A stretch of 64,000 bases of DNA from a virus, in the IMG/VR virus record IMGVR_UViG_3300022200_000032, positions 1 through 64,000 of that record. One strand, given 5' to 3'. The stretch's first letter is position 1, and each line of letters opens with the position of its first letter. Positions 14,986-44,400 of this stretch are shown piece after piece. Made by a program: the position numbers and the translations under genes. The notes beneath the pieces were generated by a model that was given only the letters and a program-made list of their open reading frames with translations, did not search any database and was not told the origin of the DNA.

Positions 14986-15734
14986 AACGGTTGCATTGAA
15001 AACGGATGTGGGGGCAATTGTTTTCCGGTACAGATTGGATGATCTAGAACATGCAATGCATAAAAGTTAGGGATATTATATATCGAAGACTTTTTGCAGA
15101 TTTTCCTAAATTCATTTTTTTGGTTAAATTCTGTTATGGCCAACTCTTCTCCACAATAATCATTAAACATAAAACTGGTCTCTACGTCATCAAAATATAA
15201 AGGTAGAGCAGGTAGATATTTTGTTGCATCCATTTGAAATAGTGCTAATGCATTTTTTGTACTTGTATATTGATCTAAATCAACACTAACAAACCCCAAC
15301 ACTCTAGAAAAATTCTGGCAGAATTCTGGGATAGTATCATTAACGTCTCCAATCACAAGATTAGCCCGATTGTCAATCTTTTCAAATAATTCGTCAATAT
15401 CAATACGAAAATCTCCAGGTAACCAAAGTTCCGGATGATCTCTATGGTCGACTGGTTTAGGCATTCCACTCCCAACATCAAATCCAGTTATTGTAAAATC
15501 TATATCAAACTCTTTTTTATAGAACTCAGTGTATTCAATTAATGATAACAACCCATTGCCGTTCGCCACTCCTAGCTCGATCACATCTATATGATCTAAA
15601 TCTAGGCACTTTGCTTCCCAGATGCTCATTAACAATCCCAAAGATGTGCTGCGATTTCCGTGAATTCCCAATCCATTTGATCTGATATGACTTGCAATGT
15701 CGCGTATCTTATTCTCAATATTTTTTAGCTGCAT
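14982..15734 (-). CDS. class I SAM-dependent methyltransferase (250 aa)
   Basis: The SAM-binding motif I is IELGVANGNGLLS near residues 52-64, followed by GFDVGSG (motif II region), GDVNDTIP and FVSVDLDQY. This order is typical of a Rossmann-fold O-methyltransferase, possibly near the TylF/CmcI group. The C-terminal PNFYALHVLDHP completes the fold. The start overlaps the carbamoyltransferase end by 10 bases. Substrate unknown; the neighbourhood suggests a sugar. Confidence 0.75.
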   Translation of the reverse strand: MQLKNIENKIRDIASHIRSNGLGIHGNRSTSLGLLMSIWEAKCLDLDHIDVIELGVANGNGLLSLIEYTEFYKKEFDIDFTITGFDVGSGMPKPVDHRDHPELWLPGDFRIDIDELFEKIDNRANLVIGDVNDTIPEFCQNFSRVLGFVSVDLDQYTSTKNALALFQMDATKYLPALPLYFDDVETSFMFNDYCGEELAITEFNQKNEFRKICKKSSIYNIPNFYALHVLDHPICTGKQLPPHPFSMQPF

Positions 15735-17215
15735 ACAGTAACTCCATATTTCTTTTCAAAACGATCAGCATCCTTGCGATCGTTTACCATTGGTTCACCA
15801 CGAATATTTAAACTTGTGTTTAACAACATTGGACAACCTGTTAAATTATACCATGCTTCAAGTAATTTGCGAATACCTGAATTATCTTTAGAAACTGTCT
15901 GCACCCGACTCGTTCCATCAACATGAACAATAGCAGGAAACTCATCTGGACGAGTGCAACGTGCGACTACTTGCATGTAAGGACTATTTTCAAAACCATG
16001 CGGCATATCGAAATATTCATGCACGTATTCTTCTAATATAATAGGAGCAAACGGGCGGAAACGTTGTCTACGCTTAATATCATTTACACGATCTTTAATG
16101 TCTGGGCCTCTTGGATCTGCTAATAAAGATCGTGTACCTAATGCACGAGGGCCAAACTCAGCACGACCGCTTGCTACGCCTACAATTTTGCGAGACAATA
16201 ACTCATCTAACAATTGTTTAACTGGATATTCTCCTGGAATATTGTGTCCTAAAAACGCATCAGTCCAGTTTAACTTTTTACCGTATGCAAGTGCGGCTGT
16301 ACCAAGTGAACTACCGGCGTCACCAGGATTAGGCATAATCCAAATATTATCATAAAAGTTGCCTAAGTTACGATTTGCCAAACAATTAAGTGCAACTCCT
16401 CCCATATATACTAGATTCTTACTAGTACCTAGTTGTCGAGCTTTGCTCATAATATTGTAAATCATTGACTCGGCAATCTCTTGTGTTGAGCAAGCAATGT
16501 TTTCTAAATTAGCACTTTCATCTAAGAATGTACCTGTACCAATGTGCATGTTATGTTTGAATTTTGGTGGATTTATTGTTTCTACAAATTCTTTTAGAAT
16601 TTCGTTTGTGTAATGGGGTTTTCCCCAACCAACCATACCCATTAAAATATATTCTTCGTCCAGTGGGCGCAATCCACAACGTTGTGTAAATGCAGAATAA
16701 AACAGTCCAATACTTTGCGGATAACGCATAGTCCATAGACGTTTATACTTTGCTACACCTTTTTTGTTATATTCTGCGTGCCATATACTAATTGTATCCA
16801 ATTCGCCAATTGCATCAATAACAACTACTGTTGCATCTGTATATGGACTTGTTTGAAATCCCGCTGCTGCATGTGATTTGTGATGTGAGAAATAAGTTAA
16901 ATTGCAATTTAATAAATGGGTGTGTGTTGAAAATTGATCAAGTAATACGTCTCTAATGTTAAAGTGCCATTGTGAAACACGTTCGCCACTGCGGATTTGC
17001 CTTAATTTTTTAAGCCAATGATTTTCATAGTATGCAACAGTGTCAATATCACCATAACTTTCAGCATCATTAAGTATATCGGCACACAGGTTAGCATCGT
17101 GCTTTTGTTTGCTGTAGCGTTCTGAATGGCTAGCGAATAATATATCGCCATTGCGATCAATCACACTTACACCGGCATCATGAAATCCGCAGCTTACACC
17201 TAGTATGTTACCCAT
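15725..17215 (-). CDS. carbamoyltransferase (NodU/CmcH/TobZ family)
   Basis: These enzymes make carbamoyl-adenylate from carbamoyl phosphate and ATP and pass the carbamoyl group to a hydroxyl, often on a sugar. Visible motifs are the N-terminal LGVSCGFHDAGVSVI, the metal-binding SHHKSHAAAGF (His111, His112, His115), VVIDAIGE, and the conserved SGRAEFGPRALGTRSLL in the C-terminal part. Its 496 residues are slightly shorter than many homologues. Carbamoyltransferases of this type are known in marine T4-like phages. It overlaps the methyltransferase and UDP-glucose dehydrogenase-like genes by 10 and 8 bases. Confidence 0.9.
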   Translation of the reverse strand: MGNILGVSCGFHDAGVSVIDRNGDILFASHSERYSKQKHDANLCADILNDAESYGDIDTVAYYENHWLKKLRQIRSGERVSQWHFNIRDVLLDQFSTHTHLLNCNLTYFSHHKSHAAAGFQTSPYTDATVVVIDAIGELDTISIWHAEYNKKGVAKYKRLWTMRYPQSIGLFYSAFTQRCGLRPLDEEYILMGMVGWGKPHYTNEILKEFVETINPPKFKHNMHIGTGTFLDESANLENIACSTQEIAESMIYNIMSKARQLGTSKNLVYMGGVALNCLANRNLGNFYDNIWIMPNPGDAGSSLGTAALAYGKKLNWTDAFLGHNIPGEYPVKQLLDELLSRKIVGVASGRAEFGPRALGTRSLLADPRGPDIKDRVNDIKRRQRFRPFAPIILEEYVHEYFDMPHGFENSPYMQVVARCTRPDEFPAIVHVDGTSRVQTVSKDNSGIRKLLEAWYNLTGCPMLLNTSLNIRGEPMVNDRKDADRFEKKYGVTVCS

Positions 17216-17963
17216 TTCTTACCTTGTTGTTGTATATGCATGCTTGCTCCAACACAGTAAACGGTGCTCCAGCTTCGCGTGCTTGTTTAATCATTGCACG
17301 TGTATCTTTAGGGAAGCAATGTCCTCCCCAGCCACGTTCAGCAGTTACGTGCGAATGATCTGGGCCGATGCGTTCATCTCTACACAAACTATACCGTACA
17401 CTTTCAAAATCTGCACCTACATTTTCACATAGATCATATAGTTGATTAAAGAAACTTACTTTAGTTGCTAAGAAACTATTTTCAGCATATTTAACTAGAC
17501 TTGCTTCAATGTCGGTGATTAAGTGTGCTTCAATATACGGAAATGCTAGTGTCCATATATCAAGCCAAAAATCTTGATTGCCGCCACCTAGAATAACATA
17601 ATCTTGCGTAGCAAAATCTCTGTCTGCTGTTTCAGCGCGAAGAAACTCTGGGCTATATGTGATTTCATGATTGGGAAATTGTTGTTTTAGATCTAGTACG
17701 CCTTTAACATCAACTGCTGATTTAATCACAACCGGAATAGTACTGTCTATGGTTGTTAACACTTGTGCTACATGCGAATAATCGCACGATCCATCAGCAG
17801 CACTTGGTGTGTTAACGCAAATAATAACCCCGTCGACATCGTTATAATCCTCTACGGTTTCTAGTCCAATTTTAGGATCAACAACAATAATGTCCATGTG
17901 CTTGCTAAACTTAGCAGCAACAGCATGCCCAACAAATCCGTATCCTGCGATTGCTATACTCAT
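17208..17963 (-). CDS. UDP-glucose dehydrogenase-like protein, short form (251 aa)
   Basis: This family oxidises UDP-glucose or a similar nucleotide sugar to the uronic acid with two NAD+. The NAD motif GYGFVG is at 7-12, followed by CVNTP, SPEFLRA (104-110), VKYAENSFLATKVSFFN with the catalytic lysine region, and GGHCFPKDT with the catalytic Cys216. Full-length enzymes have about 390-450 residues. Here the protein ends right after the central helix, so the C-terminal UDP-binding domain is missing. It may therefore have relaxed substrate choice or need a partner. It is coupled by ATGA to a 33-codon gene upstream. Confidence 0.82.
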   Translation of the reverse strand: MSIAIAGYGFVGHAVAAKFSKHMDIIVVDPKIGLETVEDYNDVDGVIICVNTPSAADGSCDYSHVAQVLTTIDSTIPVVIKSAVDVKGVLDLKQQFPNHEITYSPEFLRAETADRDFATQDYVILGGGNQDFWLDIWTLAFPYIEAHLITDIEASLVKYAENSFLATKVSFFNQLYDLCENVGADFESVRYSLCRDERIGPDHSHVTAERGWGGHCFPKDTRAMIKQAREAGAPFTVLEQACIYNNKVRNG

Positions 17964-18061
17964 TTGTAGATAAATGGATCGCGCTTACGTAATTCTTTTA
18001 GTTTCTTTCTGTAACGGATTTCGAGTTTAATCTTGTTCCAGAGTCGTTTAAAAATATTCAT
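17960..18061 (-). CDS. very small basic protein (33 aa)
   Basis: A short frame exactly fills the space between two genes. Its ATG at 18061 shares one base with the upstream stop (TAATG) and its stop overlaps the dehydrogenase start (ATGA). The product starts MNIFKRLWNKIKLEIRYRKK and ends LRKRDPFIYK. It is strongly basic, amphipathic and helical. The tight two-sided coupling suggests a real gene, and I have an impression of similar tiny proteins ending RDPFIYK in marine phages. Function unknown. Confidence 0.6.
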   Translation of the reverse strand: MNIFKRLWNKIKLEIRYRKKLKELRKRDPFIYK

Positions 18062-19149
18062 TAATGTTTTCCTATTGCTTCTATCTGTCTTTGCACAAAA
18101 TCTGGATCGCTCCAGTGATAATCATATTCAGCATAAGCATCTGATGTACGAATACTATATACGTCCAAATACTTATAGAGAGTGTTCCAGATATCCTGAT
18201 AATCTGTGCTATTAAAACTTTTTTGTAAATCAACCTGACCGATTTGTGGGTGTCCGATAGTCAGTGTTTTATCATCAGGATCAAATCCATTAACTATTAA
18301 CCACTGTCTAAAATCCTGTAGTTTTTTCTGCATAAATTCGAAATGGCTTGGATCTCTGGCCCATTCAATATCGAAATCACCAGCAGCAAGCGTTTGTCCT
18401 CTGAGGGTGGTTGACACTAGCTCACCAACCCGGGAATCTCTGCCTTCGTCATTAAAAACTTCCCAGTGATGTTTTCCTACTGCCTTGTTGACGCCCACAA
18501 ATACACCACCCAATGGCCTGGAAATGGTATCAATACCAAATAAATCAAAATCATTCTCATCTAGTTCAAATCTGGGTGCATTAATCCAGCACATGAGTTG
18601 ACTGGGACGCATCCATTCAGGCATATGGAATTTTTTGCCGTAACTCAGTGCCCAAGATTCAAATTCATGACATAATAGATTGGTTTGTCTTATATACCAT
18701 CGTTGTTCGTCATTGGCCTTTAACGCATATGGTGATGGTTCTTGTGCAGTTCCCTGAAGTTCTTCAAAATATAAATGCAGTCGATTGAAATGATCGTGAT
18801 CAACCACAATTCTTTCTTTTCCATCATTTTCTGAAATTTCAGTTGTTAGTGAATTGCTTAATGTGAAGTGATCATCAATCTTATATCCAATATTGCTATT
18901 ATTAATATATTCGATTACCTGATTAATTTTGTCAATTAAGAAGTTTCCGTTACGATCACCATCAGCAAACCCAAAAAAGCAATAATTTTTTTCTAAATGT
19001 AGGTTATTGTTCAGTATGTTATTAAATGCATCTAACCATTTACGAGACAGGCTGTTGTCATACACATCAAAAAACACAGAATGGAATTGTCCGGTAGTAT
19101 AATTACGTAATTTTATTTCAACGCTATCTAATATTTTGCCACCACTCAT
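18061..19149 (-). CDS. hypothetical protein (362 aa) next to radical-SAM cluster
   Basis: No family recognised. It is soluble, with no signal peptide or membrane segment. It is rich in aromatic residues and Asp/His (DHDHFNRLHLYFEEL, DFDIEWARDPSHFEF), so metal binding is possible but unproven. It overlaps the radical-SAM gene upstream by 26 bases and the tiny 33-residue gene downstream by 1 base, so it belongs to the island operon. It could be an oxygenase or an adaptor for the radical-SAM enzymes; this is speculation. Confidence 0.6.
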   Translation of the reverse strand: MSGGKILDSVEIKLRNYTTGQFHSVFFDVYDNSLSRKWLDAFNNILNNNLHLEKNYCFFGFADGDRNGNFLIDKINQVIEYINNSNIGYKIDDHFTLSNSLTTEISENDGKERIVVDHDHFNRLHLYFEELQGTAQEPSPYALKANDEQRWYIRQTNLLCHEFESWALSYGKKFHMPEWMRPSQLMCWINAPRFELDENDFDLFGIDTISRPLGGVFVGVNKAVGKHHWEVFNDEGRDSRVGELVSTTLRGQTLAAGDFDIEWARDPSHFEFMQKKLQDFRQWLIVNGFDPDDKTLTIGHPQIGQVDLQKSFNSTDYQDIWNTLYKYLDVYSIRTSDAYAEYDYHWSDPDFVQRQIEAIGKH

Positions 19150-20446
19150 ATATTCTTATATCCTGTTTTAATATTTCGTCCATCGTAATTGGTTGTGATC
19201 TGATGCTTTCCAGAGTTAAAATTCTTTCTTTGCCCTTGCGCATACCATCCGCATATTCATCTATCCACTGCTCTGCAAGTGTGGGCCTATTTAGTAGTTG
19301 TTCTAGAACATCAATCAACGGCTGTTGATGTTTGTCGGCGTGCGGTTTGATCCGTTCTAACACAGAAGAAACATACGGTCCTAATATGTGTCTTGGCAAA
19401 GAGAGAGGACTCATTACAATGTCCGGGCTAAATGCAAAGGTAACCTTTGCAAGTAACTGTGTATTTAATTCCTTAGATAGCCAGAACATATTTTCTAGTT
19501 CAAAAAGTCCTGGCAATGTTAAAGTAAAGTCCAGTCGCATCTGACGGTCATTGGTTTGTATTGCTTGCGCATCTTTGTAATTTTGCAGCCATTGATCCCA
19601 CTTTAGTCCTGTACGAATATATTCTCCAACTTTGCCTGTGCCATCAATACTTGCACAAATTTGCCAATCACGCAAATGTGCCAAAATATCTGTGTATAAG
19701 TTCAGCCCTTTGTAGTCAACTTGAGATAAGTTTGTGTTATAACGTGCATATACACGATGACCTTGGTTTAATTCTACAATGCGTTGCATTACACGCCAAT
19801 GTTCTTCAAACATAAGTGGCTCGCCGCCCACCCAGTATATTTCTTCTACACGGTTTTCTTCAACGGCATCATATAACTCCTGTGCGGCAGTTTCGGTCTG
19901 GAATTGTTGAATTTGTTTTTTGATATCTGGCTTCATCCAGTTGTTTTTGGGGTCATTCCAGTTAATCATATTGTGCTTGCGTTGTTCTGATTCCCAAGAA
20001 CTAGAAAGCATATCTCCACACATACGGCATTTGAAGTTACACAAATTAGATATACGATAGTCCCAGGAAACAGGACGCATTGTGGTGTGACCCGATTCGT
20101 CTGTGGTTTCCCAGATACGATCGTAATGATGAGATGTTAAATGCCAAAAATAACTACGATACACGTCTGTGTTCAATAACTTATGATTGCATACCTGACA
20201 TTCATCAGGTATTTCTCCATTCATCATCTGAACACGCACATCACGTATCTGTTTAGAGTTCCAGTGTTCTTCAAGTGTGCGTGGTTTGTAATCACCAGTG
20301 CCTGATTCAATATCAATATATTGTGTAAAGTTTTGTGCGGGTTCTCTGGATGCACAACAGAGACGGCGCTCTGTTTGTGGCGATAGATATGTGTGCGTCC
20401 AAGGCGCCATACACAGGAATTCTGGTTTTGTATCAGGCTTTCTCAT
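19124..20446 (-). CDS. radical SAM protein with N-terminal twitch domain (440 aa)
   Basis: The radical-SAM cluster motif is C-x3-C-x2-C at Cys136, Cys140 and Cys143 (NLCNFKCRMCG), followed by WVGGEPLM, the SAM-binding glycine motif. An auxiliary Fe-S half-domain lies in front of the core, with Cys12 in LCMAPW, Cys30-Cys31 and Cys83/Cys86. Twitch and SPASM domains usually follow the core, so this is the permuted (N-terminal) arrangement. It is first in homology with 20433, 21635 and 22596. Overlaps of 14 and 26 bases bind it into the operon. Substrate unknown; small-molecule or peptide modification are both possible. Confidence 0.85.
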   Translation of the reverse strand: MRKPDTKPEFLCMAPWTHTYLSPQTERRLCCASREPAQNFTQYIDIESGTGDYKPRTLEEHWNSKQIRDVRVQMMNGEIPDECQVCNHKLLNTDVYRSYFWHLTSHHYDRIWETTDESGHTTMRPVSWDYRISNLCNFKCRMCGDMLSSSWESEQRKHNMINWNDPKNNWMKPDIKKQIQQFQTETAAQELYDAVEENRVEEIYWVGGEPLMFEEHWRVMQRIVELNQGHRVYARYNTNLSQVDYKGLNLYTDILAHLRDWQICASIDGTGKVGEYIRTGLKWDQWLQNYKDAQAIQTNDRQMRLDFTLTLPGLFELENMFWLSKELNTQLLAKVTFAFSPDIVMSPLSLPRHILGPYVSSVLERIKPHADKHQQPLIDVLEQLLNRPTLAEQWIDEYADGMRKGKERILTLESIRSQPITMDEILKQDIRIYEWWQNIR

Positions 20447-21638
20447 ACAAGCAATCTGCTAACTCCGGCAAGTAATCGTGCATAGACTGCCCTCTACGTT
20501 TATCCATACGCAGACTATCTTTGCGCAGAACTTCTGGATCAGTATCCTTGCTATTCATAAAAAACGCAATTTGTTTAAATTCTTTATAGTGACTAGAATT
20601 TACATTGGCACTTAAAAGTCTTTCTGTTGCACGTAGTTTTGCTGTTTTTGGTAGACTTGTAATACAATGCTGCGGTGCGTCATGCAACATGTTCCAATAT
20701 ACAAAGTCAAACCCTTGTATATCAATCCAATTAGCAAGTTCTTCTAAATACATTACATTAAAGACATTAACAGTAGAACAGACTTGTAATGTTATATTGT
20801 CTGAACGCTCACGCAGCTTTTTAAATTGGTCTAAGTTTTTATTAACTGTCTTCCAATCTGCACCATAACGTTGATATTCAAAACGTCTTCCTAGATCATC
20901 GATTGAAAGTGCGATCTCAACATGTTTAAAATGCTTCCAGACTTCGTGCTCTTCTGGAAACAACGTACCATTTGTGTTGTAATGAATTTCAATGTCTTTA
21001 GCATATCCTTCGTCAACTAATCGTTGTAAGTAATCAAAATGAGGTCCGATCATAAATGGTTCGCCGCCAGTGAATTCCAAGTAACGAATATTCTCTGAAT
21101 TGTTGGCAAGACTATCCCAAAATGTTAAACTATTTTTAGGCCAAGCACCTTTGCGATTCATTGTGTAAGCAAAACTTTCTTTGCGTTTTGCCACAGGCAG
21201 TTCTTTTAGTTCTTCGCCAGCGTAAGTTGAAGAACTCCACGATCCGCAAATGCGGCAAGCGATGTTACAAATGTTTCCTAATTTTAAATCTAGAAACTTT
21301 AGAGGTTTAGGATGAGTGGACCACTCTGTTTCTTCTTTAAGTATATCCTTTAATCTGTCTAACGTATGCATACGCTTAGACGTTCTGTTGGCGTCCTCTT
21401 CTGCCCAGCAACGTCGGCATTCTGCAGGCTGTTTACCTTCTAAAAATGCGGTTCGCAATTGATACATATACTCAGAATTTTGTACTTCTGTTAAATTAGT
21501 TTTAGTTAAATCAAACTTAACAGATTGGCTGTCAACTACCTCTCCATCATACATACAACACGGGCGTACAGTTCCAATCGGGCTAGTTTCTAAACTAATC
21601 CAAGGCAATATGCAAAATTTGTTATGTGGTAGATTCAT
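20433..21638 (-). CDS. radical SAM protein with N-terminal twitch domain (401 aa)
   Basis: The radical-SAM motif is Cys124-x3-Cys128-x2-Cys131 (NICNIACRICG) and the SAM motif is EFTGGEPFM. The N-terminal auxiliary cluster cysteines are Cys9 (FCILPW), Cys27-28 and Cys74/Cys77. I chose the ATG at 21638 because it overlaps the previous stop as ATGA and has AGGTG upstream; an ATG at 21674 has no ribosome binding site. It shares a phrase-by-phrase layout with the degenerate protein at 21635-22603, including LDLK before the cysteine motif and VWKHFKHV, and is probably its closest relative. Confidence 0.85.
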   Translation of the reverse strand: MNLPHNKFCILPWISLETSPIGTVRPCCMYDGEVVDSQSVKFDLTKTNLTEVQNSEYMYQLRTAFLEGKQPAECRRCWAEEDANRTSKRMHTLDRLKDILKEETEWSTHPKPLKFLDLKLGNICNIACRICGSWSSSTYAGEELKELPVAKRKESFAYTMNRKGAWPKNSLTFWDSLANNSENIRYLEFTGGEPFMIGPHFDYLQRLVDEGYAKDIEIHYNTNGTLFPEEHEVWKHFKHVEIALSIDDLGRRFEYQRYGADWKTVNKNLDQFKKLRERSDNITLQVCSTVNVFNVMYLEELANWIDIQGFDFVYWNMLHDAPQHCITSLPKTAKLRATERLLSANVNSSHYKEFKQIAFFMNSKDTDPEVLRKDSLRMDKRRGQSMHDYLPELADCLYEKA

Positions 21639-22603
21639 GGTTTCGCACCTATTATTTCTTTGAAATAAATCCATAGAGATTTTTCTTCATCTGATAGACT
21701 TTCTACTCTATTATAAACAATCTTGACATCAGACGCAATGCCCAATTGAATTATTTTTTTAATAATATCAATATTGCCATGTCCTCTAAATTCGATAACC
21801 CGAACATGATCCAGATGTCCATTCAGATATTCATCCCAGTTAACCTTTTCGTGATATTTTAAATCCAAAATATGCAATTGGTTTTTTTCTTTGGTCCATC
21901 GAGATCCCAATAATATATCTTCATACGTTACTACACTATCCAGAGTATCTGATCGTTTGCTTGGCTTACCATTTTGCTCATCATCCCAACATTTTGAACA
22001 CGCGATCGGTTTTTTGCCTTGTACAAATTGTTGTCTTAAATTCATCATATAATCTGAATCTAAAACTTCATTTAAAGAATGCTCATGTATATTAAAATTC
22101 CCAATGGTATCATTGGATCCGCAGCAAACCTGAAATTTTCCATCCCTGGTGATCACTATACCAATCCAAGGAAAAACGCAAAACGCATCACTGTTAGGGA
22201 AATTGTATTTGTCGTGGCAGTGTAATGTCTTTTTTTGTAAAGGATGGCCCGATACAATCTTGTTATCTTTAAAATAATTCATTGGCGTCGGATCATAACT
22301 AATCACACGTGTAACATCAATAATTTCCTGTGCGATGTTAGCACTGTTGCTTACTATTATCACAAAACAATTACTTATATCTGCTATGTTTAGTGCTTCT
22401 TGTATTCTGGACAAATGATCACCATAATCAGATATTTCATATTTTTCTTCTGGTATGAAAAACACTAACCTGTCGGTAGGACCATAATAATCTTTGCGGC
22501 TTTGTTTAACAATAGAATTCAAACGTCTAATATTTGCATCAACAACACAGGCAAAAACAACATTATAATCTTCGCTGATATGTTTGAGTACGTTATTATT
22601 CAT
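21635..22603 (-). CDS. degenerate radical SAM paralogue lacking the C-x3-C-x2-C motif (322 aa)
   Basis: The N-terminal twitch cysteines are intact: Cys142 in FCVFPW, Cys160-161 and Cys202/Cys205. After LDLK at 247-249, however, the catalytic cysteine segment and about 80 residues are missing, and the sequence resumes as VRVIEFRGHG. Other members have EFTGGEP there. The C-terminal end (SDVKIVYNRVESLSDEEKSLW) still aligns with the 20433 protein. The frame is open throughout, so it is not simply decayed. A preceding domain (about 60-110, with DISNCFVII and ISYDPTP) is shared with the 22596 protein. I infer a non-catalytic scaffold, carrier or regulatory subunit. Confidence 0.75.
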   Translation of the reverse strand: MNNNVLKHISEDYNVVFACVVDANIRRLNSIVKQSRKDYYGPTDRLVFFIPEEKYEISDYGDHLSRIQEALNIADISNCFVIIVSNSANIAQEIIDVTRVISYDPTPMNYFKDNKIVSGHPLQKKTLHCHDKYNFPNSDAFCVFPWIGIVITRDGKFQVCCGSNDTIGNFNIHEHSLNEVLDSDYMMNLRQQFVQGKKPIACSKCWDDEQNGKPSKRSDTLDSVVTYEDILLGSRWTKEKNQLHILDLKYHEKVNWDEYLNGHLDHVRVIEFRGHGNIDIIKKIIQLGIASDVKIVYNRVESLSDEEKSLWIYFKEIIGAKP

Positions 22604-24257
22604 TTAACAATAATGCCTCTAACTCAGGAATATGATCTAAAATATTTTCTTTACGTATGACATCCAGTTGATGTGTTTTATCCCAAAACTTTTGTAACAA
22701 ATAAGTTTTATCACACGATAGCATGTTTATTGCTGACATGAATCCATTGGTTGCCCTACGTAAATGATCATTAGGCTCTAACCATTCCAGATGTGCCACG
22801 AACGATTTTCTTATTTTTTCTTTATATGCAGGAGTAGCAATATCAATTCGGTAGAACAGAGGATCTTGCAAAATGTTAACATTAAAATCTTGTGGCTTAA
22901 TAAATCCTTTTTCTACCCAATTTTTATGAAAATCTGTGATGTGTAATGCATTCATAATGCTTAATGTAGGACTAACATAAAAATCTACATGGGGACACAT
23001 TTCCATCATTAATTGTCTATTCTGTTCTACATCTTGCCACTTTGTTCCTGAACGAATATATTCTGCATGTTTTCCCATTCCATCAAGACTTGCACCGACA
23101 GCAACGTTCGAAAAATGTTGCCATTGTTCAAACGCATGCTTGTCTTTGAGTTTGACTTGTGTGAAATTTGTATTATATATTAACCTAACATCAGTCATAT
23201 TGCGTTTAATAAGTTCGTCAAGTATAATATAATGTTCTTCCATGACCAGAGGCTCGCCTCCCGCAAAATAAATCTGTTCTACGCAATCAATATGTTCTAA
23301 CAATTGTTCGAGCATGTCTGTCTCGTAACGACCAGCATATACTTTTGGTTTATTATTGCTTGCCCATTCTGGACCTGCCAAAAGGGCTTGATCCTTGTAC
23401 CATTGACTACTGAAAATATGACCACAGCTACGGCATTTCAAATTACACAAATTACTAAATCGTATATCCCAATATGCCAGTTCAAATTTCTCGTACGTTC
23501 CATCTGGTTGTGTTTCTAAAACACGTTCGATTAGATGTCCGTGATGCTTATTTGCACTCTGTCTTCCAGAAAAGAAGCCATAACCCTCTTCTTCATAACA
23601 TCTGGAGCAAGCAACACTTTCTTTATCACGTAACATGTTCAAACGTAATTCTTTCATTGCGTTTGAATTCCAAATTTCCTCCAGTGTATTGTCTCTGCAA
23701 TTTCCTACTGTTCCTGCTGGGTCTGCCATACAACATGGCATGGCCTCTCCAGTTGGATAAGCATGTAAATGAATCCAAGGATATATGCAAAATACTTTGC
23801 TATCAGTAAGTAAATATTTTTCTTTATCAGAAATATTTTCAAGTGAAATTTTCAAAGGATTGATTGATCCATATGCGTATGCTTCTTTTTTACTAGATGG
23901 ATGCAGTTGTAAAATTTTTCTTTCAAAATCACCATCTACAATTTTGTAAGAAATTGGCACTGGATCATGACTAATTTGTTGTAATAATGTTAATTCATGT
24001 GCAATATGTGTATTTGTTGATTCTATTATGACGAACGCATTGCTGATATCAACTTCGTTAAGAATTGTTTGTATATTACGCAACACTAGTCCAAGATTAG
24101 ACTTTTTAACATACATATCCCCAGTATGTTTCAAAATAATTCTTTCTTCAGGCTGGTATACTTCTTTGTAAATTTCTCGCAATTGTTGTTCAAATTTTTG
24201 CTGGGAACGTTGGTATGTTTCGTTCATCCAATAACTCAACTCAATTTCATAAATCAT
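22596..24257 (-). CDS. radical SAM protein with extra N-terminal domain and twitch (553 aa)
   Basis: Domain order is an N-terminal module of about 105 residues (with DISNAFVII and ISHDPVP) shared only with the 21635 protein. The twitch cysteines follow (Cys157, Cys175-176, Cys217/Cys220). The core then has Cys271-x3-Cys275-x2-Cys278 (NLCNLKCRSCG) and FAGGEPLVM. I start at 24257 (MIYEIELSYW), because GGAG lies 9 bases upstream and the overlap with the preceding gene is 11 bases; the frame extends to a TTG at 24281. The downstream overlap is 8 bases. The shared N-terminal module suggests that it works as a pair with the degenerate paralogue. Confidence 0.83.
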   Translation of the reverse strand: MIYEIELSYWMNETYQRSQQKFEQQLREIYKEVYQPEERIILKHTGDMYVKKSNLGLVLRNIQTILNEVDISNAFVIIESTNTHIAHELTLLQQISHDPVPISYKIVDGDFERKILQLHPSSKKEAYAYGSINPLKISLENISDKEKYLLTDSKVFCIYPWIHLHAYPTGEAMPCCMADPAGTVGNCRDNTLEEIWNSNAMKELRLNMLRDKESVACSRCYEEEGYGFFSGRQSANKHHGHLIERVLETQPDGTYEKFELAYWDIRFSNLCNLKCRSCGHIFSSQWYKDQALLAGPEWASNNKPKVYAGRYETDMLEQLLEHIDCVEQIYFAGGEPLVMEEHYIILDELIKRNMTDVRLIYNTNFTQVKLKDKHAFEQWQHFSNVAVGASLDGMGKHAEYIRSGTKWQDVEQNRQLMMEMCPHVDFYVSPTLSIMNALHITDFHKNWVEKGFIKPQDFNVNILQDPLFYRIDIATPAYKEKIRKSFVAHLEWLEPNDHLRRATNGFMSAINMLSCDKTYLLQKFWDKTHQLDVIRKENILDHIPELEALLLNE

Positions 24258-25605
24258 TATACCATGCTCCAATGTGTGCAAATGTATCAGTTATACTCTT
24301 TCCACGTCGACGATCATACTGTGCATAAAATTTCTTAAAATCGTTGTGTAATGCTGACATATCAAATGTGTCCGAATGCGGTGTCTTAACTACATCCAGA
24401 TAATCAATTAACCGCTGTACTTGGTTAATTTCCATTTCGTGCAACAGTATGTTTTTATATGCGTGTTCTTCTAACCAAGTGTCTAATTTATCTGCATAAT
24501 CCATACGTAGATCTTCTGGCAACACCAACGGTGACTGAAAACTCGGAAAACGTAATATGTTTAATGTGAAAGTTGGATAATTTTTTCCGTATTGCTTTTT
24601 TAATTCTAACATCCAATCCAAAAACTCAGTCAATGATTCTAAACACAACGCATTAATAGTACACATAACATGAAATCCATTTACGCTACCTTCTGTAATA
24701 ACACGATGTACGTTACGCTCCCATTGTTCCCAATTTAACCCATCACGTATATATTCTGCATGAGCACTCATGCTTTCTTGCGACGTGTATAACTGGAAAT
24801 CTTTAATGTTGTGACTTGCTTCAATTAACTTATCAATCTTTTCATCTTCGATTCCAAGATTAGAGTTAAGTGCAAACGACACTTCTGATTCATTATTAAT
24901 ATACCAATCAATGAGTCGCATAGTATGCGGGCTCATCATTGGCTCGCCACCAGTTAATCGTAATTCTTGTAACGTTTTATGTAAGTCCGATTCCCACCAT
25001 TTAAAGAATGCTTCTACGTAGGGATTTTCTTCTTTGGGTTTAAACAACTGTGCTGAATCGTGTGTGTGGGTGAAATGGTTACGCCCATCTGATATTAGAT
25101 CTGTGTAAGGTCCGTTCTTTTTCAAATCCGTTACCCAACTTGTACTGAATGCTGGATTGCAGTATGAACACGAAAATTGACACGTCCTGTCAAATGCAAT
25201 TTCTAATGTTTTTAAGTCAATATCTGTTTCAGGATTTGCTGCCATTGCTGTAACAACATCCCACTCATCGTAGATCACAGTTTTATAAACACGATCTGAA
25301 ATGTTGTCGCGGCCGATATCTTCAATTTTCCAGCAATATTCACAACCCGCCGGACGTTCTGAATGCTGCATCATACGGCGTTCATCTTTCTTTTTGCGTG
25401 TATTGTGTAGCGCCTTCGGATTAGCAGTTACTTCATCAACACTCACATGATGCGGAAGTGGATGATGACAACTCGTGGTCATACCAGATCCTAACCAAAT
25501 GGTAGCATTATACCATTTAGCCGCACAAAAACTTGTACTGAACTCATCTATCCATTTTTTAATTTCAAGATCCGTTTCTCGACCTGGTTTACGCAATTTA
25601 CTCAT
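24247..25605 (-). CDS. radical SAM protein, second twitch subfamily (452 aa)
   Basis: The core motif is Cys142-x3-Cys146-x2-Cys149 (RTCQFSCSYCN) and the SAM motif is RLTGGEPMM. The N-terminal auxiliary cysteines Cys27 (FCAAKW), Cys46 (SCHHP) and Cys88/Cys91 are followed by WKIED. Together with the 25615 protein it forms a distinct subfamily: FCxAKW, a GM-x2-SC-x-HP segment and a single Cys where the others have Cys-Cys. It ends RRGKSITDTF, like RRGQSMHDYL of the 20433 protein. The start is 9 bases after the upstream gene. Confidence 0.85.
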   Translation of the reverse strand: MSKLRKPGRETDLEIKKWIDEFSTSFCAAKWYNATIWLGSGMTTSCHHPLPHHVSVDEVTANPKALHNTRKKKDERRMMQHSERPAGCEYCWKIEDIGRDNISDRVYKTVIYDEWDVVTAMAANPETDIDLKTLEIAFDRTCQFSCSYCNPAFSTSWVTDLKKNGPYTDLISDGRNHFTHTHDSAQLFKPKEENPYVEAFFKWWESDLHKTLQELRLTGGEPMMSPHTMRLIDWYINNESEVSFALNSNLGIEDEKIDKLIEASHNIKDFQLYTSQESMSAHAEYIRDGLNWEQWERNVHRVITEGSVNGFHVMCTINALCLESLTEFLDWMLELKKQYGKNYPTFTLNILRFPSFQSPLVLPEDLRMDYADKLDTWLEEHAYKNILLHEMEINQVQRLIDYLDVVKTPHSDTFDMSALHNDFKKFYAQYDRRRGKSITDTFAHIGAWYNDL

Positions 25606-25614
25606 ATGTTTTAC

Positions 25615-27036
25615 TTAATTAGACTGTGATTGTTGTGCAAAATATTTGCACTCGTTCCACCAGGTAGACATTTCTGGAAAAGTTTTCAAAAAATTAAACT
25701 CGTGTCGTCTGTCGTATTCGTTGAAGAAACGATAAAAATCTGCCTTATTTTGTTCTAGATTTTCAGCAGGCTGGCGCATCCATGCGATATCTCTATCCAT
25801 TCGATTAATTTCGTAATCTTTAAACCCTTTAAACCGTGTATCTGGAGTTTCACAATGCTCGATCATCCAGGTCATCAATTCTTCCAATCTATCTGCATAC
25901 ATATCTGGGAGTAAACGCATACTTTGCCAATTGGGCGTGTGTAATACAGGGGTATCAAACCACACACGCTGATATGTGTCTGAGTAAACCTGCCTTAATC
26001 CGTGTATAGCAGGAATGAGTTTATCCAGACTGGTAATCGATAAGTTATTCATAGTGATGATAAACGTTAGACTACTTCTATACGGTACTTCTGTTAAAAA
26101 TTGATTAACCCGATCCCACATTAAATCAAAATTTAGCCCTGCTCGCATATATTCTGCTTGCTTTCCGAATCCGTCAAGTGACACGTACTGCATAAAATGC
26201 TCAACATTTTCGCCATCATTGCAAATACGCTTAACATAATCTAGATACTTGTTCCATAGTTTCTGTTCTACAGATAAGTTAGATGTCACGTTAATATGCA
26301 AGTCAGGTTTTGGATTTTCTAATACATAATCAAATACGCGATATGTATTTTTATCCATTAAAGGTTCGCCACCAGTCATACGGAAGTGTTTTAGGTCTTT
26401 ATATAATTCTGGCCACCATTCCCAGAATGCTTCTACATACGGGTTATATTCAGAATGCGGAATAGGTCTACGGTCGCCTTGGAAATAAGCAGGATCGTTG
26501 TGCGGTTGGCTTGTAGGATAGGCGCCATATTCTTTTGCTTGACGCATCCACGAGCTGCTAAATTGAGGTGAACAATAACTACACTCTAAATTACAAGCAG
26601 AGTTGAAGTTCACTTCAACATACGCAGGATTAGTGTCTGCCATTGGGTCAGACACAACCTCATCAAACTTTTCAATAGCCCACGGTTCTCCCGAACGGTA
26701 GTGTCTATCAGAAAGTTTTCCGTTGTCTTCCATTGCCCAGCAATAAAAGCACTCCTCGGGTCTCCTCCCCTCCATCATGTGTTTGCGTTGTAGTTTTTTA
26801 TAATCGGTGTTATGCAACTTACTGGGATTTCCAGTAAGTTCATCTACAGGAATTTTATGCAATGGCGGATGATAACATGAGTTATTCATGCCATTAGTTA
26901 GATGTAATGAAACTTGTTTCCATTTAGCCAAACAAAAGCTCGGACTCACAGTATCTAGCTTTTGTTGTGCTATTTCAGCATCAGATAAGAACTTTGATTT
27001 AAAATCCTTGTCTACCTCATCACCTTTGTTTTGCAT
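25615..27036 (-). CDS. radical SAM protein, second twitch subfamily (473 aa)
   Basis: The core motif is Cys148-x3-Cys152-x2-Cys155 (SACNLECSYCS) and the SAM motif is RMTGGEPLM. Twitch cysteines are Cys35 (FCLAKW), Cys54 (SCYHP) and Cys96/Cys99. It is a tandem paralogue of the 24247 protein, with the shared phrases PVDELTGNP and LHNT at matching places. It begins 9 bases after the amidinotransferase stop, with no clear ribosome binding site, so coupled translation is likely. It is the promoter-proximal member of the six-gene radical-SAM array. Confidence 0.85.
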   Translation of the reverse strand: MQNKGDEVDKDFKSKFLSDAEIAQQKLDTVSPSFCLAKWKQVSLHLTNGMNNSCYHPPLHKIPVDELTGNPSKLHNTDYKKLQRKHMMEGRRPEECFYCWAMEDNGKLSDRHYRSGEPWAIEKFDEVVSDPMADTNPAYVEVNFNSACNLECSYCSPQFSSSWMRQAKEYGAYPTSQPHNDPAYFQGDRRPIPHSEYNPYVEAFWEWWPELYKDLKHFRMTGGEPLMDKNTYRVFDYVLENPKPDLHINVTSNLSVEQKLWNKYLDYVKRICNDGENVEHFMQYVSLDGFGKQAEYMRAGLNFDLMWDRVNQFLTEVPYRSSLTFIITMNNLSITSLDKLIPAIHGLRQVYSDTYQRVWFDTPVLHTPNWQSMRLLPDMYADRLEELMTWMIEHCETPDTRFKGFKDYEINRMDRDIAWMRQPAENLEQNKADFYRFFNEYDRRHEFNFLKTFPEMSTWWNECKYFAQQSQSN

Positions 27037-35415: not shown

Positions 35416-38400
35416 TCATAGGCCTTTCAGGAATTTAGCCGCAATGGTTGTTTGCTGTTGCAATGCAATTCCATCACTTGCGGTTGTTGCACCTTGAGCG
35501 TACCAGATCTCATTGTACGGTGTTTGCAATAACTGTCCGCGACTTAGATCAGTTACTACAGATCCTGCTGAATGCTCTCGATGCATACCTGTTCCGGCTG
35601 TTCCTCTGCGTAATCCGCTTACTGTATTGTTGTCTAAGTCAACATCGCGATACGTAATTCGTTCACCATTTATTTCCAAAATACCAAAAATAGCAGCATC
35701 TAGATTAGGTGTACCCAATTTACTTGCATCATCGACATAGATAACATCATCTGTCCATTTTAGTGTACGTGTTAAGAATGTCTGACTACCGGTATTATTT
35801 CTATAAACTGCTACATTATCACGCATATCCTTGAATATGCGGAATCCTACTGCATCTGGGACAACGCTGTCGGTAAACGTTGTGATCGCAATTACATCAG
35901 TGTCGCTTATTGAACCGCCAGCAATAACTAATGTGGTTCCTTCATTTGTAACACTATAATCTGATCCTGGAAGCAGTCTACGTCCATTTAATGTCACCCA
36001 CATTCTATCAGTATTCTCAACTACAGTTTCTAAGTCAAACACGTTAATTGTTGCATAGGCACCGGTAGATCTATCAAATAAATCCATGTCAAACCCATAT
36101 GTATCGAATAATTCTCGAGTCGCTTCTAGAACCGTAACTGGACCTTTGAAAATCTGTGTGAACACATCTTGTTCTCTCACATCTCTCCAGGCAGTTACAG
36201 CAAGCGTGTCTCCAGCGTTTAAATCAATTCCATATCCAGTCGCAATCACCAGTGTTTCTGAACTATCACCGCCCAATTCATATCCAGCGTGTGTGCCTTG
36301 TTGAATACCATCAATAATTTCGCCTTCAGTCTTGGTAACATAAATGTCAATTATATCATACGGGCCCGGAACTTCTGCTAAGAAACTAATAGTACGATAA
36401 CTACTTCCGTCTGCTGGATCTAATTGATAATCAATTCCGCTCACTTGTCTAACTTGATTAACGTATACCACAACTTCATCGTCATCTACTTCGCTCATAT
36501 CGATACCAGTAGACATGCCATCTGGTAATTCGTATGTTGTAATACTAGAGCCGTCACCAACATGACGTTTAGCTGTTGGTGGCTGCAATCTGCGGCCATT
36601 TAACTCAACAATTAAATTTTCTCGATTCTTATTATCAACGTCAATGCTCAATGTAAACGTATTTGTTGATCCATCACAAGTGAAAATTTCAGTTTCTGGA
36701 TAACTGTATTCCAGATCAGTTATAGTTGATCCGTCTTCTGCAGGATTAGCACCAAATACTGTGATGTTAATATAGTTGCTGTCTGTGTATGCATTGTCAA
36801 ATTCAATTATAGTTTGGCTGACAAAAGAACCTTCTGCATAACTGTAGGACAAGATTTCATCACCATCAACCAAAACCAGCACACTTTCGATACTATCATA
36901 GTTAATTGGAAGCACCAGAGTATTGCCTACAATTTCACCGCCCAAGTAAGAATTGCGATATAATTGATTTCCGCCGCCGATCCCATACACAAAAATCTTA
37001 ACTTCATCAAGAATACCCAACCCACTATTTAACTGCACAGTTTTGTCTGCCCAGTTGACTGTATAATTAATACCTTCGTACAATCTTGTTCCGGTCGTTG
37101 CATTATATACGATTAATTCTGCTGGGTGCTGTACCAGATTACGATTTTCCAACGCAGACGTTGGTGCACATCTTGCATCAAGACCACCCCAGGCTACTAT
37201 ATTTCCTGCACCCGGATTAGCATAAACTATGCTCTTAACTTCGAATCCGTGACCGTTACCAAGGTAATCATAACCTGGAAGTGTATGGACTTTTAAGTCA
37301 AGTGTGTCAAAAATTGCTCCAGGAATTAATTCTTCTGGTGCATGTGAATTATATACATCAATGAATTCACCACCAACAATATCAGCATCAGGATCAATAT
37401 CACTTGGTGGACCAATTGTAACAGTTGGAGTTCGTAAGTATCCAAAACCTGGATCAGTAATAGTGATGCCAATAACGGATCCACCAACAATAACAGGAAC
37501 ACCGGTTGCAGGTTGTGTCGTGCGGGTGGGCGCACTAATAGTAATGGTTGGTGCTAGATCATATCCGGTGCCTGGATTAGTGATTGTGATACCAGTGACT
37601 TGTTCATTAACAACAATCGCAGTCGCAGTTGCTCCGGTTCCATGACTCGCCGTACCCGTTGGATCACTAAATGTTACACTCGGTGCGGTTGCATAATTTG
37701 CCCCTGCATTTGTGATTGTAACACTATACACATTACCGTTTGTCATTACCGCTGTGCCTGTGGCAATATCATTAGATACGCTTGGATCTACTGCAATTGT
37801 TAGTGTTGGTACTGTTAAATAACCAGCACCTGCTGTGTCAATTGTCAATGATGTTACTGCGTCGCCAGTTAAGTTTGCTGTAAATGCGGCTGTTACCGGT
37901 GTGACATCTGGTGCTGCAATAGTGATACTTGGAGTTTCTAAATACCCCCAACCGTTATCTGTAATTGTAAATCCTGTAACAACACCGCCACTTACGATCG
38001 AATCAACTGTTGCTGTGGTAACAGTTGTTGGAGGATCAATAGAGATTGTTGGAGCAATATCATAATAACTACCACCATTACTAACAGCAATACTAATAAC
38101 CGCGGTATCATCTAATGTTGCAGTAGCGGTTGCACCAGTACCATGATTAATATTTGAATCTGGAGCAGCAATGCTTACTGTAGGCGCAGTTGTATATCCT
38201 GAACCAGGTTCAGTAACTGTAATACTTGTAACCCTTCCTTGTCCAGCATATAACGGTGCAGTTTCGCCGCTTACTGTTGCAGATGCCGTTGCTTGTGTGC
38301 CTCCACTAATGTCTGGGGCACTAATGGTAACTACAGGAGCAGATGTATACCCATCACCTTCAACAAGAATAGTAAACGTTCCAATTCCGCCTTCAGTATC

Positions 38401-41400
38401 AAAAGCAACAGCATCAAATCCGTCACCGTCACCATCTACCCCATCAAAACCAACTGTAGTTGTATCTAATGCTACTGTTGCCGCAGCATTGGTACCAGCC
38501 GTTGGCGATGCCGGGGTAATAGTTACTGATGGTGCAGTTTGATACATATAACCCGGTTGATCTACACTGATACTTTGTACCTGATTGCCCCCAATTGTTG
38601 CTGATGCTGTTGCTTGAGCAGCAATTGCAGTTGGTGCCGCTACTGTTACAGTCGGGGCTGAACTATAATAATTACCAGCCACATCTAAAGTAACTGTGCT
38701 TAATTCATATCCGGCAATCGCAGCGGTTGCGGTTGCTGTTACACTTGCAGGCGGAGGAGTAACGGTTACTGCTGGAGCACTTGTATAACTGTTTCCTCCG
38801 TTCGTAATTGTAGTTGCTGTTACCCCACCAGTGCTACTCAGTGTAGTTACTGACGCTCTTGCACGTGATGTTACAATGCTTGGCGGATCTGAGAATGTAA
38901 CTGTCGGTGGACCTGTGTATCCGGATCCATTATTTGATAACGTTACTCCGGTTACGCTGCCGGCTGATATTAATGCGTATCCTGTGGCCGTTTCACCTGG
39001 CGAATTTGGTTGAGCCGTGATGGTCACAGTCGGAGTCGTAATATATCCGAATCCACTGCTTGTAACCGCAATATCATCTACTGTTAGTGTGGCAAAATCA
39101 ATAGTTGCAAGTGCTGTTGCTGTGATATTGTCGCGAGGTGCGCTAATAGTTACACTTGGTGGTACATCTGCCGAATAACCTTTGCCTATTTCTGTGATTG
39201 TGATTTCAGAAATTTCAGTAGTGCTAGTATTAACAGTTGCGGTCGCTAATGATTGTACTGCGTCAATGCCAGATAAATCAACGCCCACATACGACCCGGT
39301 AAACGATGTAAATATTTCGTTATCAAGAATGCTTTCACTGTATGTTGGTAATCCTTCTGGTCCATAATCCAAATTATCAAATAAGTTGATATCATAATTG
39401 CCAACATCAAATCCAGTATTTGCGCCGAATCCTGGGCCCATTAATTGTACCCCTGGATAGTCTAATCCATCGATCAACAACGCTAAATCTAGGCCCGGAT
39501 TGTTCACATCAGAAACATAAAATCCTGTTGTACGATCAATGCCCGAAAGTGTATCAGCAGCCACAATTTGATATTCGGCCGGATCAAATGTGGAATCACT
39601 TGCTGTAGATCCATCTGCATTGATTGCCCTGTATACACGATCATTAAATCTAACTAATTGGTTTTCATCATAAACTGTATTTGCTTCCCAATTAACAATT
39701 TGTGATGTGTATTCATATCTGTCGTATTTGATTGTGGTGTTTAATGAACGCACAACAGAAGGTTTCATATATGCAGTCGCAGTTGCGCCTGTACCATTTC
39801 CGCCTGTGATAGTGATTGTTGGTGTTGTTCTGTATTCCCCATAACTACTACCAACGATATTAACAGCAGATACCTCGCCATCTTCGTTAATAATAGCAAC
39901 CGCAGTTGTTAAAATTTCAGAATCTCCAACGATCTCAACTTGCGGAGCAACAGTATATCCTGATCCGCCATTGGTTACCACAATATTATCAATTATTAAT
40001 AATCTGTTGTCGTACCATTGGTTCCAAGGAACTGTACTCCAAACAGTATCCTCAGTTTTTCTGTTGCTGATGTCTGTTTCTAATATTGCAATACCGTCGT
40101 CGAGTACCGGGCTTACAAATTTACTATATGTGGTATCATAAGCGGCTGGAACATCAAAGTCCATAACAGTACCATCGATCGTGTCAATGCCTTCGTAACG
40201 TAATAGGAATTCTTTAATTTTTACGTGATATGGTTTTGATTCGTTGATATAATCAAGTACAAAATCTTGATTATCCTTACGATATATTGCATATTCTTCA
40301 AGATTTCTAACCTTGTGGTTTACATCGATTAGTGAAGTTTTGTACAGCCAATCAACACGACCTTGTTCAGCCAGAATGTAATTAAACACACTAATTAACA
40401 ATTGATTGCGATGGTCTAAGAAGTCACCCGTTAAGAATTCTTCATTGATTGAACGAATAATATTACGCAATTCAAGAACTGGTTCTTGATCAAAATATTG
40501 TGCATCATAAACTTCACTGTCAAACCCATATCGATCAATAGTGTAATCGTATAAAGAATTCTTAAATTGAATTGTGCCATCTTGTAATCCAACACGGACC
40601 CAAGATCCACTCAAATATGCATATAATTCCCATTTGCCGTTACTGTTGGTATTAACTTTTATAACTGTTCCTTCATCAGGAAAGTTAGTCAATAATTCAC
40701 TATACGTGTTAACAATCTTGGACGGTTTCGTTAGGTTATCATAATTTGTGGCGTACCAGTTTGTATATTCCCAATATCTGTTGGTATCATAGCTTTGTAC
40801 TCTGACTAGATCTAAACCTAAGCTATTGTTAACTTCATAAATTGTCCACAGCCCATTGTTGTTTTCATCAACCTCGACTAGGTAACGATAACCCACTCCT
40901 GCAACTGCTAAATTTTGATACCCTAACTCAACCAAATCTGCAACAGTCGCATTCCATGCTCCTGAAGATGCTGTTGGAATTGATTCTTGTGCTGTCAGAA
41001 GGCTAAATGTTCTTAATTCGCTAAATGGGTGATCTTTAATTAATAAATTTGATTTGTCAATATACGTTTTGAGGGCCGCAAAGTTATTACGGAATAAACT
41101 CTTGCGAGGACGGAATTCAACACCGTATTTGTCCGTTGGACTTAAATTAAAATCAGGAACTTTATTTCCAAGTGTGTCTACCCCGCATAAGCTATCTTGC
41201 AATTTGCGATATAGCAAATCTGGTAAGAAATCATTGGAGTAATTTTCGCGAATTAAATCATACTCAACAAAAACATTATTATCTGTTAATGTACGATTAT
41301 ATTCAATATGCAAGATGCTATCATAATTGTCTGCAATGTACTCATCGGAATTATATAACGCAACAACATTCTTGCGAATCAATGCTGCATATGGTATTCC

Positions 41401-44400
41401 GGATGCTTGTGGATTTTCAATATAGCTAGCAATTGCACGTGCGCTTAATGTTTTGTTCGCAGCTTTGTTTGTTATTGATCTGTTTTTAACCCAGAAGTAA
41501 TAACGAGTGGTTACTGTGCGTGATGCATCAAGTCCACTAACTGCTGAAAATTCAGTACTATTTCGAACTGTACCTGTGCCGGTATATTGATTTGGTGGAA
41601 CCGAACTTTCAATCCATTCATAAACATCAACAGAGCTACCCGGGAACAACTGTCCCCAATTTTTAGAACTATAAACAATGTCTTCTTGATTATAATTTAG
41701 ATAACGTACCTGTGTTGTGTCCCACCATAAATTTCCCACGTGATCTTGAGCCCAATAAATTCCTGATCCTGCTCTGCCAGCATTATATACAGCTGGATTA
41801 ACCGCACCGATATAATCTAAATTTTGCTTGACTGGGCCTAGTAATTTTCCGTTAATTGGATCGATAAAATCTAAATAGACAGAAACCAGATCAGTATCTT
41901 TGTTGTAAATATACAGATAGTTTGTTAAACGACTATCGACTACGGTGGGTTCTGATTGTATTTCTTGCCAAGCCTGTACTCTGGTTGGGTTTTCAAATAC
42001 AACTAACCGACCAATATTTTCAACTGTCGCATCATATCCTGGACTTGTTACTACTAGCAGATTGTCAGTAAAGTTTACTGCTGTGCCGAATTGATCAAGC
42101 TCATTAATATCAGAATCATAAATTTGTTGTCCAAATACAAATTTGCCTGGTGTCTGGTAATTTGAACTTGGTAATAAATCAAACGTATATGCTGTGCCAC
42201 CTTCAATAATTGGATCAACAAACCGTGTCGTATCTGAATCATAAACTGTTTCAGTTAAGTTCTTGTTAAATGTTGTTGGAATACGTGCAATGGCACGATT
42301 AGCGCCAACAACTAGATTTGTCGAAGAATAATCAACATGGATGCTACTACCAAAGTGATCATATTCATTTGGTGCTGGGCTAACAATTGTTTGAACATTT
42401 TCAAATGGCACTAGGCCCAAGTCATCAAACGCTGTACCAACACCAGGCATGACTGTTAATTTGCTTAATATCGGTGCTTCGTCTTGATTAACGACACTAA
42501 TAACAAGTTGCCCATCACTGTTTACATTTGCTTGCACATTTGGAATAATAGCGGCGTTGATATCTTGCGCTACTTGCTCTACAGTGGTATTAGTAAAGAA
42601 CACATCCTTGTTGTCGATTCGAATTGAATCGCCAACTGATATGGTTGGATTTGATACTGTTCCTGTAATTGTACCAAATACACGACTTCTATTTAAATAT
42701 CGTGTCACTGACCCTGCTTCTGGTAGTGCCCAATTATCTCTTGGTGCGCTAACATATATTGAACAATCTGTTCTACAAATAGTTTGCGCTTCACCAAAAT
42801 GTGCCCCTTGATTGTTGTTGGTTAATGATAGTGTTTGGACAAGTTGAAACGTATTGATATCAATATCAATCTCGTCACCAACGTGCAACGTAACACCATT
42901 TGAAAAAGTCACAGTGTTCAAAGTTTCATTAATTGTATATGTTTGCGTACCCACATTATTGATTGAATTTAACTGATGGACGTTATTAAGGTGTACAGAG
43001 TTTGTATCAGAGACGGATCTGTAGGTTTCATATGTTTTTACTGATGCGTTAGTTACTACAAATCGCTCAACTGTTCTTTCGTAAACGTATACCTTGCCTG
43101 AATTTAGTAATGCACCGTTTGTGGCAGTTGGAGCGCCTACCACAAGTTGCTGTCCATCACTAGTGGTGCCAACAGTTTGACCAAATCCTTCGCTAACAGA
43201 TCCTGATATGGTATCTGTGTATCTGTAATAATCTTGTGCTCTGAACACAATTGACGCATCTTCGGCTGGCGCTGTTGCAAAATCGATTGCAACCGTACTA
43301 TCAATGTTAAAACTATAATCATAATATGGGCGTTGTAGTACACCATCGACGTATACCTGAACCGCTTCTTCATCAATTGCGGTATATAATTCCGTGACTT
43401 CTGCAAAAGTAGTAGTACTGCCATCGCCGATGGCACTCACTAGTTTTTTGCGAGAAACCTCAACCACGAGTCCAGCGGCCGGAACGTCATTAATAGTTAA
43501 TATGTTTGATGTGAGATTATATTCACTGGCAGTTAATGTTTCACCATTTAGAGTTACTGTTATCTGCGTTTTGTTATCAACTTCGATGTAATTTGTAATA
43601 TCATAACTAGCAGTGTTACCATTGGTTATAAATGATGCGGTCTGATCTTGATAATCATTGCGGTTGTATGCGTATACTTTCCCAATGCCTGCGGCTGAAA
43701 TATATATCCACTTCTCGTCTTCGGAAATCACTACATCGTAACCAAATAATGCACCTTCTGTGCCTATATCGGCATCAGGAAGGGTTAACACTTGATATTC
43801 TTGGAATAAATTAAGAGCTGGATCTTTGTGTATTACAACAGCGATACCCTGGTTATTTTCGGTTTGTTTGGCACCAGCAATGAACCAATCAGATGCCATG
43901 GACACCGAATTGCCCAGATATGCGATATCTTTAACATCCTTCAGTACATTGCTAAATGTATATCCAGAATTAGTTTTATTGTAGCAATACAATCCTCCAT
44001 TTCCACCCAGGTGTCCAGGAGCGCCAACAATACACCCAGTACCGTTCAATCCTTGGGCAACGCTGGTACCAAATCCAATATCAGACGATGCACCGGTAGG
44101 AGTCTGACTCTGACTTAACGAAAATGGTACTTTCTTTTCATAAACTTTCCATTTTCCATTAACATCACTGTTTACCCAAATTTTGTCGCCTTCAAACAAA
44201 CGTGTATTGAATTCACTATCTGCTGCGTCACTTGCTTGATCCAATCTTGCAGTAACTAATTTAAACGCAATACCTAGTCCAGTTAACGTTGACTCGTTTC
44301 CGGAAATATTCCCATTAATAATAACTGAAGTTGCATCGTTAATTTTTCTAATACGGTGTGCACCGTTGATGGTTTCGTTGAATTGTTTGATTATGATAAT

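Follow-up and report, generated by a model that had tools for sequence, protein, structure and literature searches.

Gene X, carried on the minus strand of a viral contig, encodes a paralogue of the N-terminal-twitch radical-SAM enzymes that, judged from its residues, has clearly lost catalysis and kept its auxiliary-cluster (twitch) domain. The window, by which we mean the whole 64,000-nt stretch of DNA analysed here, is part of a 77,855-base viral contig with T4-like baseplate genes, and within it X lies between two catalytic relatives, C and D (Table 1). A first-pass annotation had called X a selected pseudo-enzyme. The pseudo-enzyme part of that description stands; selection, which we discuss as retention, is favoured by indirect tests and not proven, and no independent orthologue shares the deletion, X being known from a single virus.

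Table 1. Features of X and of the array around it, with positions in the window.
Feature	Positions	Strand	Basis
X, core-less N-twitch radical-SAM paralogue, 322 aa	21635..22603	-	open frame; partial NF033640 and SPASM matches; AlphaFold
X N-module (residues 1-125), four-stranded alpha/beta domain	22229..22603	-	structure prediction; trees
X twitch domain (residues 134-217)	21953..22204	-	invariant residues; BtrN profile match
X radical-SAM core remnant (residues 218-322), four short strands	21638..21952	-	alignments
Overlap of C stop and X start, 8 bases, ATGAATAA	22596..22603	-	sequence
Overlap of X stop and probable D start, ATGA	21635..21638	-	sequence
A, twitch-radical-SAM	25615..27036	-	NF033640, E 5e-97
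B, twitch-radical-SAM	24247..25605	-	NF033640, E 4e-89
C, twitch-radical-SAM with its own N-module	22596..24281	-	NF033640, E 7e-116
D, catalytic twitch-radical-SAM paralogue, probable 401-aa form	20433..21638	-	NF033640, E 4e-101
E, twitch-radical-SAM	19124..20446	-	NF033640, E 2e-86
F, conserved cassette protein, 362 aa	18061..19149	-	follows E in most loci
Carbamoyltransferase (NodU/TobZ type), end of cassette	15725..17215	-	Pfam Carbam_trans_N and Carbam_trans_C

Loss of the core and survival of the twitch domain

The frame of X is open over 322 codons, and its product aligns with that of D, the gene at 20433, at 34% over the shared columns and on both sides of a gap of about 50 residues, all of which bears out the first-pass annotation. 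X tracks D up to 'LDLK' and re-aligns from 'WDEYL...VIEFRG'. The alignments agree with the same annotation that the missing stretch holds the C-x3-C-x2-C motif, which is deleted near residues 250-256 of X, and that the GGEP of D has become RGHG (residues 273-276); here GGEP aligns with RG------HG, six residues being missing. A further loss was absent from the earlier description: X ends in 'FKEIIGAKP' and lacks the last ~160 residues of D as well, so that loss of the core involved more than one deletion. The sequence stops after about the fourth barrel strand and leaves the (beta/alpha)6 barrel incomplete. With neither the cysteines of the SAM cluster nor the GGEP motif that binds SAM, and with the barrel's second half lost, X, on its sequence, is unable to act as a radical-SAM enzyme. 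A Pfam search found no Radical_SAM (PF04055) match in X, and in the core remnant 8 of the 15 remaining family-invariant residues are altered, with 33 invariant columns deleted.

In the twitch domain, 14 of 18 family-invariant residues are intact, every cysteine among them. The earlier claim that all twitch cysteines remain is correct except in number, since the D family has five such positions rather than four, and X keeps all five (C142, C160, C161, C202 and C205). All elements of the N-terminal twitch pattern of NF033640 (N_Twi_rSAM) are present in X, namely C-x2-P-W, C-C and C-x2-C. This family model matches X over positions 1-118 of 398 only (E 2e-23), at 83.2 bits and under the curated full-length cut-off of 170 bits, and Pfam SPASM (PF13186) matches residues 142-206 at 27.3 bits against a cut-off of 21.5.

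An AlphaFold2 model of X (26-row alignment) has a mean pLDDT of 85 and a pTM of 0.61. The N-module and twitch blocks are mostly at pLDDT 88-97; the core remnant is predicted as four strands plus helices with blocks at 75-91, and the intact homologues in the alignment may make this remnant look folded. Predicted alone, the N-module reaches pLDDT 88 and pTM 0.84. The matching viral structures are radical-SAM proteins from uncultured phages.

Comparison with known systems

X shares with N_Twi_rSAM (NF033640) its N-terminal twitch and its gene array, but has an added N-module and is missing both the C-terminal half and the motifs of the core. In GeoRSP systems, a radical SAM/SPASM protein (TIGR04303) is paired with a neighbouring SPASM domain protein (TIGR04304), much as D stands beside X; the SPASM domain of GeoRSP is C-terminal, whereas X is viral and derived from D. 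TIGR04347 is a haloarchaeal pseudo-SAM/SPASM family that, like X, is radical-SAM-like and has no catalytic motif. Non-catalytic SPASM/radical-SAM relatives are therefore already named, and X, which gives no match at E ≤ 10 to either TIGR04304 or TIGR04347, is a singleton viral variant among such partners. A literature search on pseudo-radical-SAM proteins found nothing relevant.

Dph1-Dph2 (PMC11048331) is a paralogous pair in which each subunit of a single radical-SAM enzyme has Fe-S clusters; in contrast to X, it has an unrelated, atypical radical-SAM fold and both Dph subunits keep their cluster cysteines. BtrN, a solved twitch-domain enzyme, is the best sequence match of the twitch family profile (4m7t, E 4e-4), but in BtrN the catalytic core precedes the twitch domain and X is without the core.

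A conserved array and its junctions

X is embedded in a run of genes of which A, B, C, D and E are full-length NF033640 members (E 2e-86 to 7e-116) and F has no family match in Pfam, NCBIfam or PHROG. The order A-B-C-D-E-F-carbamoyltransferase is kept in nearly all of ~80 IMG/VR contigs found via D; in the rest, the array is cut by contig ends or interrupted by inserted genes. Radical-SAM cassettes are also held in pelagimyophage host-recognition clusters (PMC7029224), and a T4-like ocean genome has 12 radical-SAM genes (PMC5332604); either may or may not represent the cassette described here.

The first-pass annotation described both ends of X as coupled to its neighbours; X overlaps C by 8 bases and the probable start of D by ATGA. 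D orthologues begin at the same MNLP, so the listed D start at 21674 is probably an upstream in-frame ATG; the start is most likely at 21638 (MNLPHNKFC), which makes the X-D overlap the 4-base ATGA. The C-D junctions of L012 and L013, two related viral loci, have an ATGA overlap as well. From these overlapping stops and starts we infer coupled translation.

Distribution of X

Orthologues with the same deletion were sought among related viruses. The sole other copy of X is in IMGVR_UViG_3300007960_004792, which is 99.99% identical to the window over 14.8 kb and hence the same virus. This virus apart, no relative sharing the deletion was present among ~240 related viral loci, comprising 80 anchored on D, 80 on an X/D/C alignment and 80 on C, with contigs overlapping between scans. 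Nor did any of the three scans turn up another internal twitch protein that lacks CxxxCxxC while its start region is intact; the remaining few internal matches are C-terminal fragments of split genes. Marking an N-module as (N), the C-anchored loci (n = 79) comprise 42 with C-D, 33 with C(N)-D, 3 with C-D(N) and 1 with C(N)-X-D. X was found nowhere else in 16 whole viral records, an annotated phage collection gave no match to it, and GTDB genomes gave distant twitch relatives only (E 1e-18 or weaker).

Probable origin from a D enzyme bearing an N-module

By the trees of its twitch region and N-module, X is a descendant of the D (20433) enzyme. Its twitch region branches next to D (support 99/91) and its N-module groups with that of the L013 D protein, apart from C modules (98/99, or 99/91 in a larger set), both trees carrying long-branch warnings. 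The first-pass annotation had noted an N-terminal module common to X and the 22596 protein, C; the module is indeed shared (35% over 106 aa), and that of X is closer to the D type. D proteins with an N-module in cis occur at L013 (530 aa), L099 (527 aa) and L269 (529 aa). Across the array the module has been gained or lost, being found on C in 33 of the 79 C-anchored loci and on D in 3, and all 3 of the latter, three loci only, have no N-module on C.

That X arose by recent duplication of the D gene beside it gains no support from derived residues: those of the clade of the window, L012 and L013 are not preferentially shared with X (2 against 3). A tree constrained to place X with the D of this clade is itself not rejected (p-AU 0.77), its likelihood being better than that of the free search. 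L172, in which the N-module sits on a D-like enzyme (29% to D), was rejected as an intact X orthologue: its neighbours are T4-like recombination genes, a gene context unlike that of X, and it has no close relatives. The N-module matches nothing in Pfam or NCBIfam, and an attempt to name it by fold (Foldseek, VIA-align) gave generic alpha/beta matches only, with best Z of 6.0-6.8.

Among the window's genes, A (87%), B (90%) and D (77%) have their closest relative in L012 or L013, and C (71%) has its own in L009. This difference in closest relatives places a mosaic boundary near X, indicating recombination inside the cassette.

Retention or decay

The codon-position pattern, a simulation of neutral decay, frame-preserving indels and the confident predicted fold favour retention of X. 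First, at the three codon positions X and D differ by.53/.38/.63 (186 codons), as functional paralogue pairs do, whereas neutral decay simulated from D gives equal differences at the three positions; this signal may predate the loss of the core. X-D divergence is near saturation, and X is known as one haplotype. Of the family-invariant positions, the twitch domain has 4 of 18 altered and the core remnant 8 of 15 (Fisher p 0.08).

Second, in neutral simulations from X, which assume that the changes came after core loss and that the ancestor carried the family residues, an open 322-codon frame combined with 5 or more core-invariant changes has a probability ≤0.003 at divergences of 0.01 to 0.3, and an open frame with at least 8 core changes arose in 0 of 4,000 runs. 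Third, the indels observed in X all preserve the frame.

These results bear on a rival account, possible though on the unlikely side, in which X is a relic in decay, a D(N) copy that remained at a recombination-prone C-D junction, lost its core recently and has a frame unbroken so far. Much about the locus would fit such a history. X is a singleton, missing from all relatives examined; it has evolved fast, on a branch of 2.7-3.5; a seemingly pointless core remnant persists in it; and the breakpoint indicated by the closest relatives of C and the flanking genes lies nearby. Foreign genes are often inserted at the C-D junction in other viruses, and unrelated or extra radical-SAM genes occupy the exact position of X in L019, L049, L062, L064, L065, L076 and L088. 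However, neutral evolution lasting long enough for the core invariants to change should also have given stops, an outcome captured by the joint probability above, and decay does not readily account for in-frame indels, clean overlaps at both ends and the keeping of every twitch cysteine.

A candidate role beside D

The reading we prefer, which we judge evenly poised between right and wrong, is that X is a retained non-catalytic protein, made of an N-module and a twitch domain, that works with D. A D enzyme bearing an N-module would have been duplicated, the two copies then dividing the work. X would fold and hold a putative [4Fe-4S] cluster in its twitch domain, as its ligand residues suggest, and its synthesis would keep pace with that of D by way of the overlapping stop and start. 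It may then be an accessory subunit that associates with D, or with C. The N-module present in cis in the D proteins of L013, L099 and L269 would in this way be provided in trans, possibly along with a second auxiliary cluster. The more specific proposal, that duplication split the enzyme into a catalytic D and a core-less X acting in trans, with an extra auxiliary cluster on the non-catalytic chain, we regard as rather doubtful. The weakest point of the in-trans model is that the majority of D enzymes manage without X and without an N-module of their own; X is also missing from the nearest relatives, L012, L013 and L009.

Both roles offered in the first-pass annotation, partner subunit and electron carrier, go beyond the alignments, and we infer the former as part of the preferred reading. 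The latter, in which X would serve no structural purpose and only relay electrons from its twitch cluster to the SAM cluster in either D or C, is improbable. The complete set of twitch ligands and the match of the profile to the twitch domain of BtrN are compatible with it, but relatives manage without X, and the kept N-module and remnant suggest docking rather than a plain carrier. We give similarly little credence to X acting on C or outside the cassette, whether by binding a substrate or leader or by competing with D, with no need of a D complex. The related N-module on C and the separate genomic setting of the D-like L172 enzyme could be read that way; against this, X stands between C and D and overlaps both, and its N-module is of the D type.

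If X is retained, it would offer a natural test of the function of a twitch domain parted from its radical-SAM core, and of the way in which an enzyme divides its domains between two genes. It also offers one handle on which member of the array, found in many uncultured viruses, needs the N-module. The fixed-order array itself (15725-27036) is possibly of wider interest than X. The contig beyond the window has one more radical-SAM gene, at 67361-67849 of the contig (+ strand), and within the window a single 5,047-codon frame at 35416-50559, beside the baseplate genes, perhaps encodes a giant tail or adhesin protein.
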